This document shows, piece by piece, positions 6,701 to 55,828 of a stretch of 64,000 nucleotides of DNA (position 1 is its first letter; every line of letters begins with the position of its first letter). Location of the stretch: contig OY997640.1 in NCBI GenBank assembly GCA_963921795.1, forward strand, positions 56,962,671 to 57,026,670. The letters run 5' to 3'. The translations under genes were made by a program, and so were the position numbers. Below the pieces are notes generated by a model, which was given only the letters and a program-made list of their open reading frames with translations, did no database searches and was not told where the DNA came from. This DNA is from Nannobrachium achirus. Taxonomy: Eukaryota; Chordata; Actinopteri; Myctophiformes; Myctophidae.

Positions 6701-9700
6701 TATCACAGTACAGTGGATTATTTACAATACATACAGTAAAATGTGAGGTTATCCTACTAGTGACTATTTTCCTTTATTGAGTAGCATTTTGTGGCTAGAC
6801 ATTTATGGCCCAGCTAATAATTACTGGAACATCCGGTGATGTAAAACATGTGCCTTTTTGTTGACCCCATCAGTCAGGAGAGATAGATGTGGTGAACCAC
6901 AGGACAGGAGACCGCTGCCACCTCAAGTTCGCTCCCTACAGTTACTTCTCCAGAGATGTGGCAAGAAAGGTGAGTGTTGAGATCTCCCCTTGCTTCATCC
7001 ATCTGTTGAGTAGTAGAGAGAAAAAATATCAGCAGGCACCACAGAGTAAGCTACTTTTCATTTAAAGTAGACCTCTGTGCTTGAAAACTGAAGATGTACG
7101 CAAATTCAAATCAATGCTGGATACTGCACTAGGGATCAATCGAATAATCAATGAATCGTTCCAGAGATGGTCAAAATACATTTTAAAATGTGCTAAAGTT
7201 TATTTATAAAAAACAGTTGATAAACCAGTACAATGCTGTAAATCTTGTTATTTTGATTTTTTGAGCTTTCTGAAGGATTACCTGGAAAAACGTATTTTAT
7301 CTACAATACCATGTTAATGACCACAAGCTGACGGGGGGGGGGTGGATTAATTGTTTTTAATAACGGTAGAATAATTGAAAATGACTATCTCTCCTTTAAC
7401 TGAACACTGTCCTCCTCTATGCACCAGGTAACTGGTGTAGTGATGGATAAGGACGGCAAGGCCCATTATGTGCTGTCAGGAACTTGGGATGAGAAGATGG
7501 AGTTCTCCAGGGTGATGCAGAGCAGTAAGGGAGAGAACGGCACAGAAGGCCAGAAATCAAGGACTGTTTACCAGACACTCAAAGCCAAAGAGCTGTGGAA
7601 GAAAACCCCACTGCCGTGAGTTGGTTCCTGGGTATCGTTAAAGGAGGGGTGGGCATTGATGGAGCTGCAAAATACTGATTCTCAACTCAATTGAGAGTTT
7701 GATATGAATTAGGCCAGTGGTTCCCAAACTTCTCTCCCGGGATCCAAACTAGTGAAAACAGTAGATCTACAAGCTCACAGCGCGACGCTTCGCAAGCTTA
7801 TAGATCGGCTATTTTCACTACTTATTAGATTTGTTTTCTAATTTATGGAATTTCTTAGATTTTTCTTTTATTTATTCATTAACTTACTTAGAAAAATCAT
7901 TGCATTTTTCTTTTATTCATGAAAATCTTAGCTTTTTAGGGAATGAAAACATTTAGGGACCCATAAAAATGTGTCCACGACCCACAAATGGGCCCTGAAC
8001 CAGTGGATTAGGCCACAGACCCGCATTTGATGACAATGTTTATCTCTGGGACACCAATCTACCCTTTAAAATGTGTAGAGTGTTAATTTTGGAAAAACAT
8101 CCGTATCACAGCTGCGCAGATGTGTCAAAAGAGCATGAGATCCACTCGCGCAGAGAATAAAGTTTCTCTCTGTTTTTCCCATCATTATCCCTCATCCGGC
8201 CAGCGAGGGAGCAGAGAGCATGTACTTCTTCTCCTACCTGGCTCTGACGCTCAACGAGCCCGAGGAGGGCGTGGCGCCTACAGATAGCCGTAGGCGGCCC
8301 GACCAGAGGCTGATGGAAGCCGGCCGCTGGGATGAGGCCAATGCCGAGAAGCAGAGGCTGGAGGAGAAGCAACGCATCGCCCGTCGGGAGAGAGAAAGGG
8401 CAGCCAACCCACCAGAGGACGGTAGGGTTTTTCGATTAATCGATTTTTAATCAAAATCCGGGTTTTTTCCTTTGGACGATTTAAAAAAAAAGAAATCGTA
8501 AAATCGATTTTCACTTTAATTAGGGTAATTCTTACTCATTGGAGCCTTGCACGGGGCAAAAAGTACACAGCCCGGTCCTCCTAAAGCAGGACGACAAGGT
8601 CTGACACCAAATTAATACCTACTTTCTCTCTGATGTGTCATTTCTTTGATGCGCGTGCAGCGCAAGTCAAACTGGGCAGAGCTCACCACAGCACTGCATG
8701 CGCTCACTCGCGCTGGTACATGCAGGCAGCAAACAGAACAAAAAGCTGCTGAGCTGGTACACTTAGGTCTACGTTGTAGTTTGAAAGAAGCTTATTAATT
8801 CTGTGTTACCCATCCACTGTAGTCTACTCCTACTGTCCCTGTCACTGTGTTAATTTTGTGTCGGGAAGCGAAGCGCTTCGCCTCCGTGCATGAGCAGTGC
8901 AGGGGCGGCCTTAGCAATTTTTTCACCCGTTTCACCAGCCTCCAAGAGCTGGCTTGTTTTGGCTGTTTTGTCACTCACTATTGATAATGAAACACTAAGG
9001 ACGCTAAGTTAACTTCTGTATGTGATTGTTGCGCAACTAAAGTTATTATTATTATTATTACCCTTATTGTTTTATTACATTTTGCTATTTGGCTATATAA
9101 AAAATAAAACAATAATAAAAAAAAATATCCTTGCATTTTTTAAATGAAAACAAAATAGTTGAAACAATGTATTATTCTTTTAACAAAAAAATCGAAATCA
9201 GAATCGAAAATCGACTTTTCTGAGAAATAAATCGAGATTTTATTTTTAGGCCACATCGAACAACCCTAGAGGACGGTAAGGGAAACAAGACTGGAAGGGA
9301 GAGGAGGTCTCAGGTGGCAGCAGAAAAGAAATTACATGACAACACTGTTCATGAAAATAGTTACTAATGAGTTACTTTGTGTGCGGTTTGGGAACAAAAC
9401 CGTATACATCACAGTGTGGCCTTTTCCACCGGCAAAGAACCGGTTCTGGTTCTTTCTCCCGCCTATGGGATGAACCAGAGGTGTGCTTTTCCACAGAGAA
9501 CCGGAGTTGGTTCCGAACCGTAAAAGTTGGTTCGGAACTGGAACCACAAAATCCTTGGTTTTTGTGGTTCCAGAGCCAAATCCTTGGCTCTGGTTCAATC
9601 TGGTGGAAACGCAAGCTGGTTCGCGTGAACGAACCAAGGTTCCAAGAAAGTTGAACCGGCACTGGTTCTGGAACCGGTTCTTTGCCGGTGGAAAAGGCCC

Positions 9701-12700
9701 CAGTGTGGTGTAATGTGGTGAATTATAAAGGAAACAAACATGAAGACTTGGTCCACGCTTTGAGGCATGTCAACTACTGTGGTGATGGCCAAATAGAAAC
9801 CGCAATCTTTTGGAATACTTATTCTATAAGTACAAAGGTGCTTCACAACAACAGTGTTGGTGAACAAAAATGTTTTCATTTGTAATAGTCAACTGTGATC
9901 CAGCTTTCACACTTCGTCATGAGTTTCACTTTGACGTTACCATTTCATGGTTAGGCACAATGTTCATGGATTTCTTTATAATCGACTAAATTGATTACTA
10001 GTCTGATTAACTGCAGCCCTATTGGACTTTTATTTTTAAAGACCTGTACAGTGTATTGTGTATGGGTATGGTATGTATTTCCAATTGAACAATATACTGT
10101 ATGTTTTTCCAGAAGCCCTTGAACATAGGATGGACAACAGTGATGTTAACTGAACAATAATCGGTTATATGATGAGCTTATATTTATTTCATACCACACT
10201 ATATGCTTTAACCTTTAGCAGCAAAAATACAAAATAAATTAGATTTCCTTTTTAAAAATTGACTATTTAGTTAAATACATTATTTATGATAATTTATTAA
10301 ATTGATTAGTTTGGTTCACTGTTGCACCCTTACACTAATTTGTTTGTTTCTGTCCAAAGCTGTCTCTGAGGACTTCATCAACGACTCGCCTTTAAAAAGC
10401 AAGTACCTCCTCTCTTGGCCTTTCAGTAACCATTGATTGAATGAAGTATTTATTAGAAGTTTTGCATAGCAAAATGTACAGTTTCATGACAGTACAGTTC
10501 ACTGATACAAAGTCGACTAAAAGGAAACCCAGGTAAGGTAGGCTTATTTCCATTGCGATCCATGAGACCATTGCACTGCATTTCTCCCAAGTACATACTG
10601 ACCCAAAATCCGCACCTGCATTCTGTGTGTTTGTTGTGTGTATGGTGGGTGCCAAATGTCCTGCGTGACCCCTTACAACCTGTTCAAACCACTGTTTCCT
10701 TTCCAATCCCTTCATCTGTTTTGCGTTCAGCCGATGCAGAGGAGATTGCCACGGAAGCAAATGAGGTTTCAGATGAAAGCAAGTATCACAGCTCAGATAG
10801 ATAGACTTGTGTGCATGTGTGTGCTCCTAAAAAGAAAAAATATTTTATTTTATTTGTGACCTGCGCTAGTGTAACCAGCCTCATGTCACTGAAACTAAGT
10901 TGATGAAGAAATACTTTGGTTCTCAGGAAGAATTGGAAGTATCACTATTAATCTGTGGAATGCAAGAGCCTCTCCAGTGGAACTCAGAATGTTCGACTCA
11001 TTTGGATCACGTTGAAACCTAAATTTACTACAGTGCATAGTATTAATAATTTGTATTTATAATGCACTTTCCATTCAAAGAATCTCAAAGTGCTACTTTG
11101 CAGAATAAAAACATTATCAATAATCAATAACTTTAGCAGGGTTTAACATCAGACACATCATATAATAACACTATCCAAGTTTAAAAGCAGAAAAAGCAAC
11201 AAACCAAAAAAAAAGTAAAAAGAAAAAGGAAAGCTGATCATTAGCATGCGAAGGCCTTCCTAAATAAAAGGGTTTTTAGGCCTGTTTTAAAATAGTTCAG
11301 GGTCTGTGGTGATCTTAGTTCAATGGGAAGGCTGTTCCACAGACGTGGTGCTGCCGAGCAGAAGGCCCGGTCCCCCATTATTACAGTGTTACAGTATTTG
11401 TGTACCGTATACTATGTGTATTACACTAGAACAGGGGTAGGCAACCTTAGGCACAGGTGCCAACATTGGCACAGGGAAGGGTGATCACTGGCACACTGGC
11501 AGAAGTGTGATAGAGAGGATGGGGTGTCATCAAAATGTATGTTTGCACACTTGACTATCTAGAAAATAAAAACGTGGCACTTAATTTCAAAAAGGTTGCT
11601 GACCCCTGCACTAGAGTATACACTCTAGTGTATGTATATACAGTATTATACACCCTCAGGCTGTGTCTGCTGTTGCGCTTATTCCCATTACATTTGAATT
11701 CTCTTTTGTGTGTGGCTGTTCAGCGGATACTGAGGACTCTCCCTGTCCTACACCTATTGCATGCAAGTACCCTAACTATGCTTTCTGCACCCATTCTTAA
11801 TATTATCCTGTGTCATGTTCACTCATTCATTCATATATGTTCTCATTCATGTCTTTACGTTTGTTTTGTTTTTTGGTTATTTTTTTCTTTTTTGTCCATA
11901 CTGTACATCTCTCGTTGCATCTTTTTTTCTTGCAGCACCCCATGGACCACAACCTTATCAAAGCAAGTATTCCACTCCTGAAATAACTTTTTGAGCAGGA
12001 TCTAGAGCTGCACAACGGATGCAGAAAAGTCCCAGCACTGGCTATTGCAGTTTCCAAATCCAAAGTTGCAACAGATGTCTATCTGTGATAAACTAGAAAG
12101 GAAGTTACAAGTCATTAACTTAAATTAATTTTGTTCGAAGTGGGTACAATCGGCACTTAAAATTTACATTAACTGTATTATTTTTTCCAAATGCAAAAAA
12201 AATGTATTTTTGTACTTGAGTATCACAATCCATTTTTTGGTTACAGTATTCACTAAATAATTGGGCATTTTGCAATGATAATTGTTAGTTGTTTAATCGG
12301 TGTTGTGCAGCCCTAGTAAGTGCCTTTATCAGAACTCTGTCCTCGTGTTTTCACATTTGTTCATCTAGTCCCCTTGTGTCAGACACCGCCAAACCCTTTA
12401 GTCACCTCAGGGTTACAAAAGGTCTCTCTGATTTCCATCCTCACATGCTTTCTGTGTCCTCCTTGAGCTAAGGTTTGTAGGTCCCTATAGAACTGTGGTA
12501 GACTCTGTTCACTCCCATTCTCTTCTACGGTCAACATCTTGTCTGTTTGTCTATTGCTGTCAGATATGGTCATCTTTTTTTAGTAATTACTATAGAGTTA
12601 GTATGATCATCTGACAGATTAAGGTATACAGTAGTATGTTTTGGAGAACAGGGGTGACTGGAAGCGATGATGGAGGGCTCGTCTGAGGACGAACTAAGAG

Positions 12701-13418
12701 AGAGAGAGAGATGTTTTGTGGGGAATTGTTCTTCCTATTTTCCCACAGTCTGAAAAATGTAGGCATTTCCTATTTCTGCATACAGTTTGAAGGTAACAGT
12801 TGAGCGTACTCTATCTCAATAGAGCATGACAGTCTGGTGTCTGAAGTAAACCGCTCCATAAAAAGTAAAGAACATACATTAAAAACATCCAGTAGCAGTT
12901 GCAGAGACCCAAATGTACTATCCAACATTAATCTCCTCTTCCTTCCTAACCTGATTTCTGTGTCATCTGAAAACTGCTGTTGGTTAAATATAACTACTCT
13001 AAGCATCCTGAATGAAAAGCAGGTTGGTCGCAATGTGTTTGGTTTACTGTGATCAATTAGCTTTCTAGCTATATACCAAACAGAAAAGTGCTTTGAATAT
13101 TTATTTAAGTGATTCAGTTATATGCAAAATGAAGTGATGCCTCCAAGGATTTTGATCTTTCTGCTGTTTTGGACAGACTACAGACCTCCAAAGAGCACCT
13201 GCAGTAATACAGTCTGAGACCTTATTCCCCATCTCATAAACTAATTCTTATTTAATTGTATTTGTTTATTTTCAGGCATCCACCATGACGACTACAAGGC
13301 ATTGTGGTTCGAGAGGATTGACGAGCCAATATCTGGAGAGCCCATGAATGTCTACAAAGGAGGCTACTGGGAAACTAAGGATCAAGGCACGTGGGACATG
13401 TGCCCTGACATCTTCTGA
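1..13418 (+). CDS. osbp2: Oxysterol-binding protein 2-like (ORP4), 3' part of gene, 15 constant exons plus 4 candidate cassette exons
   Basis: Coding segments: <1-117, 509-717, 1158-1317, 1546-1657, 2049-2247, 2809-2926, 3172-3229, 3562-3729, 5089-5334, 5433-5553, 5783-5886, 6874-6969, 7428-7615, 8204-8421, 13276-13418. All junction phases agree and give 751 residues to the TGA at 13416. Order seen: PH domain ([18 protein letters not shown]), coiled-coil segment ([18 protein letters not shown]), FFAT motif (EFFDAME), then the ORD lipid-binding domain with LGETFE and the family signature EQVSHHPP. Known family role: sterol/PI4P exchange or sensing at ER-Golgi contacts, tethered to VAP proteins through FFAT. 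The C-terminal half ([21 protein letters not shown]) resembles human OSBP2 more than OSBP, although parts of the ORD look OSBP-like. A fish osbp paralogue is therefore the alternative. The N-terminus (about 170 residues in human OSBP2) lies before base 1. Confidence 0.93.
2809..2926 (+). CDS. osbp2: osbp2 exon carrying the FFAT motif
   Basis: The exon reads [25 protein letters not shown], preceded by acidic residues, fits the FFAT consensus (EFFDAxE) that binds the MSP domain of VAPA/VAPB in the ER. Both exon ends are set by phase: G|GT at the start and the AG of a split Arg at the end. The donor is GTCTAC, which is poor at +4 to +6. The downstream exon at 3172 continues [12 protein letters not shown], as in mammalian OSBP2, so the junction is probably right. 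Confidence 0.88.
4000..4829 (-). pseudogene. Non-LTR retrotransposon 3' fragment (C-terminal end of RT polyprotein), frameshifted
   Basis: The minus strand carries two overlapping-frame pieces. One (4829-4560) reads [12 protein letters not shown] and [20 protein letters not shown]. The next (4536-4111) ends in a Cys-rich C-terminal motif ([20 protein letters not shown]), typical of the segment after the RT thumb in several fish LINEs. A one-step frame change separates them, so the copy is dead. The 3' end is near 3980, at an A/T-rich AATAAAGTAAAC stretch. It is 5'-truncated and lies in an osbp2 intron. Confidence 0.7.
5089..5553 (+). CDS. osbp2: osbp2 exons with the ORD signature (5089-5334 and 5433-5553)
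   Basis: The first exon ends YRSLCEQ and the next starts [12 protein letters not shown], so the family signature EQVSHHPP is built across a phase-0 junction with a 98-bp intron. The paired His residues bind the phosphates of PI4P in characterised ORPs. [10 protein letters not shown] lies just upstream. The exons are GC-rich and third-position conserved, unlike the flanking repeats. Confidence 0.93.
6159..6655. mobile_element. TTAA-flanked MITE (piggyBac-type) in an osbp2 intron
   Basis: The element begins CTCATTAAAAGCC and ends GGCTTTTAATGAG, a perfect 13-bp inverted repeat, with TTAA at both flanks (6155-6158 and 6656-6659). Near the left end the palindromic CGCGATGTCGCGGG occurs twice (about 6177 and 6221). 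No coding capacity is seen. Confidence 0.8.
7716..8006. mobile_element. hAT-type MITE of the CAGTGGTTC family
   Basis: Exact flanking octamer ATTAGGCC at 7708-7715 and 8007-8014. The ends are AGTGGTTCCCAAAC and, inverted, CCACTGGTTC. A complete copy of the dispersed hairpin lies inside (7751-7819). Confidence 0.78.
7751..7819. repeat. Dispersed palindromic hairpin, full copy
   Basis: Arms AGTGAAAACAGTAGATCTAC and AAGCTCACAGCG pair with the inverse at 7785-7819. Loop near ACGCTTCG. Confidence 0.75.
8204..8421 (+). CDS. osbp2: osbp2 exon 14, end of ORD, with donor rebuilt by a transposon
   Basis: The exon gives [20 protein letters not shown] and [20 protein letters not shown], ending PPEDG with one base of the last codon. 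It is the basic and glutamate-rich helix near the ORD C-terminus. The donor at 8422 (GTAGGG) is made partly from a transposon inserted at 8423. An alternative donor, GTAAGG, now lies 854 bp downstream at 9276. Read-through past 8421 meets a stop after about eight codons. Confidence 0.88.
8423..9268. mobile_element. Non-autonomous hAT element (846 bp) inserted in the exon-14 splice donor
   Basis: The element is flanked by an exact 8-bp direct repeat, GAGGACGG (8415-8422 and 9269-9276). Its ends are TAGGGTTTTTCGAT and, at the right end read inward, TAGGGTTGTTCGAT. An 8-bp target duplication with TAGGG-type ends is the hAT hallmark. No transposase reading frame is visible, so it must have been moved in trans. 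The duplicated 8 bp are the last coding bases of exon 14 plus the G of the donor. Confidence 0.88.
9420..9700. mobile_element. hAT-like MITE with long terminal inverted repeats
   Basis: The left end CCTTTTCCACCGGCAAAGAA and right end TTCTTTGCCGGTGGAAAAGG are perfect inverted repeats of about 20 bp, extended by CCGGTTC. The octamer CAGTGTGG occurs on both sides (9412-9419 and 9701-9708), with two extra C on the right. The interior is a further imperfect palindrome of GGTTC/GAACC blocks, so open frames on both strands here are artefacts. Confidence 0.78.
10360..10398 (+). CDS. osbp2: Candidate osbp2 cassette microexon A (39 nt, GC donor)
   Basis: A pyrimidine-rich acceptor (TGTTTGTTTCTGTCCAAAG) precedes 39 nt that enter and leave in phase 1. 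It would insert [13 protein letters not shown] between PPEDG and the final exon. The donor is GCAAGTAC: a GC donor with full U1 complementarity from +3 to +6. The -1 base is A rather than G, which weakens the call when taken alone. See the three sister exons. Confidence 0.6.
10432..10551 (-). repeat. Short interspersed repeat of about 120 bp with (CAAT)n tail, minus orientation
   Basis: The same unit occurs at 22889-23018 and 29014-29140 (+). It starts GGAAATAAGC, contains TCCTTTTAGT and CAGTTCA-type segments, an AATAAA-like block, and ends in TCAATCAATCAATC. The tetranucleotide tail suggests a LINE 3' end or a SINE built on one. Confidence 0.65.
10731..10778 (+). CDS. osbp2: Candidate osbp2 cassette microexon B (48 nt, GC donor)
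   Basis: A strong acceptor (CATCTGTTTTGCGTTCAG) is followed by 48 nt, phase 1 to phase 1, encoding [16 protein letters not shown], then donor GCAAGTAT. The acidic peptide starts like those of microexons A and C (AVSED, TDAEE, TDTED), suggesting exon duplication. Confidence 0.65.
11724..11762 (+). CDS. osbp2: Candidate osbp2 cassette microexon C (39 nt, GC donor)
   Basis: Acceptor TGTGTGGCTGTTCAG, then 39 nt in phase 1 encoding [13 protein letters not shown], then donor GCAAGTAC. It has the same length as microexon A and the same donor heptamer as the other three. Confidence 0.62.
11936..11962 (+). CDS. osbp2: Candidate osbp2 cassette microexon D (27 nt, GC donor)
   Basis: A very strong acceptor (TTGCATCTTTTTTTCTTGCAG region) precedes 27 nt in phase 1 encoding SPHGPQPYQ, then donor GCAAGTAT. 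At 27 nt this is in the true microexon size range, a class often spliced specifically in neurons. Confidence 0.6.
12002..12315. mobile_element. hAT-like MITE relic in the osbp2 microexon intron
   Basis: The left end CTAGAGCTGCACAAC and right end GTTGTGCAGCCCTAG form a 15-bp inverted repeat with one mismatch. I see no matching flanking 8-mer, so the duplication has decayed or one end is misplaced. It lies 40 bp after microexon D. Confidence 0.55.
13276..13418 (+). CDS. osbp2: osbp2 terminal coding exon
   Basis: Acceptor TATTTTCAG at 13275. The exon completes a phase-1 codon and reads [16 protein letters not shown], then [18 protein letters not shown] and PDIF before TGA (13416-13418). This is the conserved C-terminus of OSBP and ORP4. 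Confidence 0.93.
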
Positions 13419-14995
13419 CCACCGAATCCCATCACGCCCTCTTCTTCCACTGAGAAGTGGAGGACCTGAGAAGATGGTCAGAAATACCCTTCATTAAATC
13501 AACCCAAGTAGACAGAAACCGCTCTGCCTAGCTTCATCTATCCCTACCACTTCCCCTCTCCTTCCGCACATTAGATATGAATACATGGCTCAGCAGTTGT
13601 TGGAGGGTGACAGAACGAAAGAAGGTCTGCACAGCACACTGTAGCTTCCTTTTCATTAACCACTTAAACCCTCTATAATATACTTAGTAAAACGGACCAG
13701 ATTTACTTACTGAGCTTGTAGATCTGCTATTTTGGATGCTTGGGTTCAAATGGTTAAGGCAATGATCAACAAGATATGTTTCGAGCCAAAGCTTTTCTTA
13801 AGACTCCTCGAAATGTCCCATGGTGGATGCCATAATAAAAAGTCACTTTAAGGAAGCTTCAGTGTGCTGACCTTGTATGCCTTTTCTCTCCCTGTTTCTT
13901 TTGGGACTAACACCTACCTACTCAGTGACACTTGAGGGTCCAGGAGGTCCAAAACTAAATGATTAATAACTATCAATCAGCTGGGGCCCCCCTCAGCTAA
14001 ATGAAGGGGACCCCTCAAGGGTCATTAATACAGTGAAAAGAGGCTCCATGGCTTGATACATATCGAGCAGGGTTGTTAAAATGTAAAAGGTTGAGATCCA
14101 GCTAACTAGCATTTGGTTGGCGTTCAGTTTTGTTTCTAGGGTCTCTCTATCCAGGGCTCCATGGTGGAACTATTCAGTTGCAGCTTTGCATTTTCAGCCG
14201 GTTGAGCTTCAGTTTGTCTAAGTTATTCTTTTTATATGTATAGTTCTGCTATGTACTAAGAAAATATAAAATGTTTTATAATTTTTGATGACATCACTAC
14301 TCTTCGTTTTGCACTCAAGTAGACTGTTTCACAGTCCGTTTCTGATCGTTAAGTTGATTTGCTTATTGATTCATTGTAAAACATAGTGTGAAGATGTGTT
14401 GCATTGAAAGTAATGTAAATTGGTTGATACAGTAGCTGCAACAATGCTGCCCCCTTTATTCATGCTTCTTTGTTACATTAAGTGTTAAGATTTGTCAGGC
14501 ACATCCAATGTATGTATGTTTTTGTCTGTGGGTCGGATTGCAGCCTCATTAGGCTGAATAGCAGCTGGTCGATAGTGTGTGTGAGCGGAGTAGCTGTATG
14601 CTACTCATTAGACTCGTGGACTCTGTTTCGTGTTAAATATCTAGCCTATAAATCTTTTTAAAGTTTAAATTGCTCTCCAAATATGGGCATTTGTGACATC
14701 CAACCACGGTCCACTTGGTGTCCACCCACAAGGCAGTTTTAATGTAGGATTAAGTGAGTTATACACATAGTACATACTTTATAACACATAGTCGGCAGCA
14801 TATTGTTTTATTTGCTTGAATTTGATCCGTAAAGTGCAATGATACATTTCTGAATCCAACCAACATTCATTCATGTCTTATCATTTCTTACTGAGTGTAA
14901 GTCCGGACTGAAATATTTGTACTAACCAGTTTTGCATTGGTGCTTCCTGCTGAAAATCGTAATGCTCCACTGTAATAAATGCTTTTATTATGGAG
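13419..14995 (+). other. osbp2: osbp2 3' untranslated region
   Basis: Non-coding sequence follows the stop. AATAAA hexamers occur at 13834 and 14974. The second is followed within about 30 bp by a GT/T-rich stretch and is my preferred cleavage signal. The 3' end itself is inferred. The region holds a half copy of the dispersed hairpin motif (13712-13733). Confidence 0.55.
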
Positions 14996-38105: not shown

Positions 38106-55715
<17,610 letters not shown>

Positions 55716-55828
55716 GTAGGACCACACTCCAGGAGGGCTTTGTTCTTCTGTCTTCATTTGGGGTTTCTTTTTACATCAATTGTGTTCAAAACAAAAGGTG
55801 ACGGGCGGCTATTCGCATCCATGTAAAT

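Follow-up and report, generated by a model that had tools for sequence, protein, structure and literature searches.

U2-type GC-AG introns carry GC followed by AAGT and have been tied to alternative splicing and to weak donors (PMC7242645; PMC2490688). The consensus of human GC donors places G at both -1 and +5, while a further class of 5' splice sites, NN//GURAG, combines G at +5 with any base at -1 (PMC11732430). Sites of this class, with zebrafish among the species reported, are used less on disruption of LUC7L or LUC7L2 (PMC11732430). The duplicated exons in the available text of another study are mutually exclusive substitution pairs (PMC9741552). Tandem duplicated exons in general lie next to one another, are similar, and have the same phase at both ends. 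SRRM4-type neural microexons are at most 27 nt long, show neural inclusion, and have TGC just upstream of the acceptor together with a strong donor.

We analysed four candidate cassette exons in the last intron of an OSBP-family gene, within a stretch of fish DNA of 64,000 nucleotides (the window). As in GC-AG introns, all four donors have GC at +1/+2, AAGT at +3 to +6 and an AG acceptor downstream. The original prediction for this locus had appealed to a preference of GC donors for alternative splicing, a link that the literature indeed makes (PMC2490688; PMC7242645). The G at -1 of human GC donors is absent in all four. As at NN//GURAG sites, the consensus bases of the four donors lie within the intron and the base at -1 is free; GU is part of the definition of that class, whereas the cassettes carry C at +2. 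The four look like this U6-type class, but with C at +2. The segments also resemble tandem duplicated exons in being neighbouring, similar and of the same phase at both ends. Unlike in such exons, similarity above background is confined to the exon ends, the acceptor tract and the donor, and any subset is in frame, in contrast to substitution pairs.

Comparison with SRRM4-dependent neural microexons was likewise mixed. The cassettes are short, keep the frame, and encode charged or Pro/Ser peptides, as these microexons do. However, three of the four measure 39-48 nt, with one alone reaching the size limit of 27 nt, and their donors are weak instead of strong. Segments 2 and 4 have TGC within 20 nt upstream of their acceptors; segments 1 and 3 lack it there. 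The name 'microexons' given by the original prediction holds for segment 4 but fails for segments 1-3 if the limit is 30 nt (PMC11463390), and holds for all four if it is 51 nt (PMC12064062).

Literature searches for OSBP2 together with microexon, and for noncanonical zebrafish donors, found nothing among the papers covered, and OSBP, microexons and zebrafish came together in one general review. Among the matches listed for GC-AG introns, exon duplication and microexons, none concerned OSBP by title or by the start of the abstract. After brain injury, two exons missing from the annotation appear in zebrafish osbp, at a place within the gene left unstated in the available part of the report (PMC8162057).

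The host gene and its last intron

On the + strand, coding exons of the OSBP-family gene lie within the initial 13.4 kb of the window. We placed 14 peptide stretches, the final one ending in CPDIF at 13415. The protein joined from the window's exons matched PF01237 in Pfam (Oxysterol_BP, the C-terminal lipid-binding domain; E 5.3e-125), which assigns the host gene to the OSBP family. When the joined lipid-binding domain was compared with solved structures, the best match was human OSBP (7v62; E 5.4e-180), aligned along the entire query (residues 1-370 of 370), C-terminus included. ORP4 (OSBP2) was absent among the 16 solved matches listed. The gene, called osbp2 in the original prediction, may be either osbp or osbp2. 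The exon at 2808-2927 includes an 11-residue stretch that resembles the FFAT motif, to which VAP proteins bind. By eye, a GT could be seen at a plausible boundary of each of the 13 earlier placed exons, which makes GC peculiar to the cassettes.

Reading by eye, we did not see SSPSSPSS in the exon frame 7404-7619; this is a Ser/Pro motif of human ORP4 (S762SPSSPSS769) whose between-species alignment, in the available part of the report, names mammals only (PMC6440634). The ORP4 lipid-binding domain is regulated by phosphorylation of a different loop (PMC6440634). Searches of the ORD exon against viral contigs (17 pattern stretches) and of the penultimate exon against microbial and viral genome contigs (353 stretches) gave no confirmed match, in collections that are uninformative on fish. 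In a long open frame elsewhere in the window (53143-55716), Pfam identified a Storkhead-box domain (PF10264, E 1.3e-07), marking a STOX-like neighbour gene.

Table 1. Window positions of the 3' end of the OSBP-family gene, the four candidate cassette exons and their GC donors.
Feature	Position	Strand	Description
Penultimate coding exon (exon 14)	8205..8421	+	ends ...AANPPED+G, phase 1; start from protein match
Last intron of OSBP-family gene	8422..13275	+	4854 nt
Candidate cassette exon 1	10360..10398	+	39 nt, 13 residues (S)
GC donor, exon 1	10399..10406	+	GCAAGTAC, -1 A
Candidate cassette exon 2	10731..10778	+	48 nt, (A/T) 15 residues (S)
GC donor, exon 2	10779..10786	+	GCAAGTAT, -1 A
Candidate cassette exon 3	11724..11762	+	39 nt, (A/T) 12 residues (C)
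GC donor, exon 3	11763..11770	+	GCAAGTAC, -1 T
Candidate cassette exon 4	11936..11962	+	27 nt, (A/T/S)PHGPQPYQ(S)
GC donor, exon 4	11963..11970	+	GCAAGTAT, -1 A
Last coding exon	13276..13418	+	(G)+13 residues...CPDIF stop

The four segments had been predicted with these lengths, each preceded by AG and followed by GCAAGTA[C/T], and this proved true letter for letter. Reading the sequence confirmed that all four lengths are multiples of three, that the segments are in phase 1, and that none contains a stop. The predicted freedom of combination also held, as all 16 joined subsets (16 of 16) read through with the full C-terminus retained. The frame is thus kept with or without the segments, as expected of cassette exons. 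All four start with C, which together with the final G of the upstream exon begins an Ala codon in each case (GCT, GCC, GCG and GCA). The encoded peptides are acidic or Ser/Pro-rich, the Pro-rich one being PHGPQPYQ.

Acceptor quality varied among the segments. Scored with an acceptor matrix, the acceptors of segments 1-4 ranked 25, 6, 26 and 1 of the 283 AGs in the intron. The acceptor of segment 4 is therefore the top scorer of the intron; that of the last exon itself ranked 3 of 283. The pyrimidine-rich acceptors claimed by the original prediction are good for segments 2 and 4, but merely moderate at 10360 (AAAG) and 11724. A further usable in-frame acceptor within segment 2, at 10740, would give a 39-nt version.

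Several element-like stretches lie in the same intron. An 846-bp element (8423-9268) with ends TAGGGTTNTTCGAT sits exactly at the donor of the penultimate exon, flanked by an 8-bp target duplication, GAGGACGG, at 8415-8422 and 9269-9276. From its ends and this duplication, we take the element to be hAT-like. In the present donor, GACG/GTAGGG, the T of GT comes from the first bases of the element, and the displaced old donor, GACG/GTAAGG, now lies 854 nt downstream. An element-derived acceptor, ttttatttttag, precedes the old donor and makes possible a 26-nt exon at 9250-9275, which would meet a stop when read in phase 1 (by eye). A MITE-like element at 9405-9712 has 42-nt inverted ends that are 93% complementary. 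Element-like stretches also occur between the cassettes (11434-11610, with inverted ends; by eye, edges approximate) and after them (12002-12316, with 15-nt inverted arms); neither interrupts a cassette.

Chance and duplication as origins of the array

A pattern chosen by eye out of 64 kb could arise by chance, as four acceptor-like AGs that happen to lie ahead of four in-frame copies of one 7-mer. We therefore counted cassettes in shuffled and control sequence, using a single acceptor score cut-off of 5.0 and exon lengths of 15-60. Across 2000 dinucleotide-shuffled versions of the intron, there was no case in which GCAAGTA closed four open phase-1 cassettes of 3n length; it closed two once and one 28 times. 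When every 7-mer was considered, the best of them attained four cassettes in just 2 of the 2000 shuffles. Decoy cassettes do occur, as eight control hexamers, sought on both strands of the window with the four donors left out, had a cassette upstream at 18 of 228 sites, compared with 4 of 4 here. The segments also share similarity at both exon ends, outside the 7-mer. A chance origin of the four-cassette pattern is unlikely, and in our assessment very much so.

The prediction of exon duplication was supported by this similarity at the exon ends. From -6 to +13 across the acceptor, segments 2 and 3 share 16 of 19 bases. This value ties for the highest among 39,621 AG pairs of the intron, the sole other pair being overlapping frames of an AG repeat. 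Segments 1 and 3 are alike at 11 of their first 15 exon bases, and segments 1 and 4 at 14 of 17 bases across the donor ends, seven of these being the common 7-mer. The case is weakest for segment 4, whose 5' end agrees with the others at 2, 3 and 4 of 15 bases.

Relative to a null distribution obtained from 20,000 draws of intron positions, mean identity among the four segments was 0.42 over the first 15 exon nt (p 0.004) and 0.46 over the last 12 (p 0.002). It was 0.45 in the acceptor tract from -20 to -7 (p 0.0015), a similarity to be expected of pyrimidine tracts in general. Further out on either side, similarity was indistinguishable from random. Beyond the donor, for example, identity was 0.32 at +9 to +30 (p 0.11) and 0.28 at +31 to +100 (p 0.23), with a random value of 0.26. 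TRF found no tandem repeat in 8000-14500 from which the array could have originated, and no structured RNA matched the window in Rfam at gathering score. With similarity to their neighbours above background, the segments have the appearance of exons duplicated in tandem.

Positions +1 to +7 of the donor are identical in all four segments, whereas further into the intron identity drops close to background. This suggests selection on the donor, provided that enough time has passed since duplication for the intron sequence around the copies to become random. Moreover, all four have C at +2 and a base other than G at -1, against a plausible GT in each of the 13 earlier exons, so the weakness of the donor may itself be maintained. 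Common descent from a GC donor explains how such a state started, not its retention.

The 64-kb window contains eight copies of GCAAGTA on its + strand and none on the - strand. Within the last intron it is found at the four donors only, with the shorter GCAAGT once more at 8662. One 7-mer common to four duplicated exons might also serve them all as a selector, pairing with a docking sequence so that the choice of exon becomes mutually exclusive, as in Dscam-type clusters. The exact complement, TACTTGC, is nowhere on the + strand of the window (exact match only), and the symmetric exons need no exclusivity to keep the frame. We consider such a selector scarcely credible and rejected it.

Donor strength and register

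The original prediction had named the base at -1 as its weak point. This was correct, and the donors proved worse than claimed, as their U1 pairing is far below that of a consensus GC donor. The computed energies were -2.8 to -3.3 kcal/mol, compared with -9.3 for the consensus. A T at +2 would bring them to -6.9 to -7.5 kcal/mol, and a G at -1 to -7.3 to -8.8 kcal/mol. By U1 energy, the four rank 22nd to 43rd of the 185 GC dinucleotides in the intron, and 94 of its 322 GT dinucleotides pair with U1 at -3.3 or better. In local folds the donors were neither unusually open nor unusually closed: their mean unpaired values were 0.49, 0.41, 0.33 and 0.41, and 150 randomly chosen places had a median of 0.44.

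Such weak pairing would also be expected if the segments were old duplicated exons that are now unused relics, their donors having decayed from AG/GTAAGTA to N/GCAAGTA. Both the G at -1 and the T at +2 are gone, in line with loss of function. Decay would nevertheless strike different places in different donors, yet +1 to +7 are the same in all four with flanks near background, and all four frames remain open. We therefore regard relics as improbable.

GC is supported as the best frame-keeping donor of each segment. Before the stop of each frame, it is the sole GT or GC at a 3n distance with AAGT after it. Other 3n sites do occur within the open frames, at 66 nt in segment 1 (GT; tca/GTAACC), at 60 nt in segment 2 (GC), and at 21 nt (GT; cct/GTCCTA) and 63 nt (GC) in segment 3, so the exon ends are not unique.

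A different register would use the GT four bases later (CAA/GTA[C/T]). The exons would then be real and of 3n+1 length, and their inclusion would truncate the protein, forming a C-terminal off-switch. The original prediction was right that this GT breaks the frame, with truncation of the protein. Its U1 pairing is no better than that of the GC. The energy is nearly equal (-2.8 to -3.4), probably through pairing of the same bases, so U1 alone does not decide between registers. The GT register has some consistency, as every segment would measure 3n+1 and including any one of them would lead to the same early stop in the last exon (K-HPP-stop). Stop codons in a last exon escape decay, and the truncating stop would do so too. 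On the other hand, the bases past GTA are non-consensus, the -1 base is not G, and segments 2 and 3 run into a stop once a 3n+1 segment ahead of them has shifted the frame. The seven constant bases fit GNAAGTA as +1 to +7 instead. These points disfavour the GT register, which we hold to be decidedly unlikely. Given the open 3n frame in all four segments, GC is the simpler register.

Predicted splicing and its meaning

Taken with the anatomy and frame of the array, its non-randomness, the similarity of the copies, the identity of the donors and their weak U1 pairing, we judge it probable that the four segments are real, tandem-duplicated cassette exons that are alternatively spliced from weak GC donors and skipped by default. 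They would have arisen through tandem duplication within the last intron of this fish OSBP-family gene. U1 recognition of the donors would be weak because they are GC donors with consensus on the intron side only (GCAAGTA) and none at -1; skipping would then be the default, yielding the plain protein. Helper factors that favour intron-side donors (of the U6 ACAGA type) would lead to in-frame inclusion of one or more exons. Inclusion would add 9 to 51 residues to the linker before the C-terminal YKALWFER of the lipid-binding domain. We infer the splicing, the regulation of inclusion, the factors acting on it and the effect on the protein from the features of the array.

More tentatively, the array may be under selection for a deliberately weak GC donor outside the human GC consensus, such that one change in a donor factor switches all four exons; we regard this as possible but doubtful. 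A switch of this kind, acting through LUC7L/LUC7L2, METTL16-modified U6 or a variant U1, would retune the C-terminal loop of the lipid-transfer protein.

If the exons are used, their four matched natural donors would test whether consensus on the intron side alone supports a GC donor, and whether the C at +2 is selected to keep exons optional. For the lipid-transfer protein, their use would mean a combinatorial C-terminal loop with up to 16 forms.
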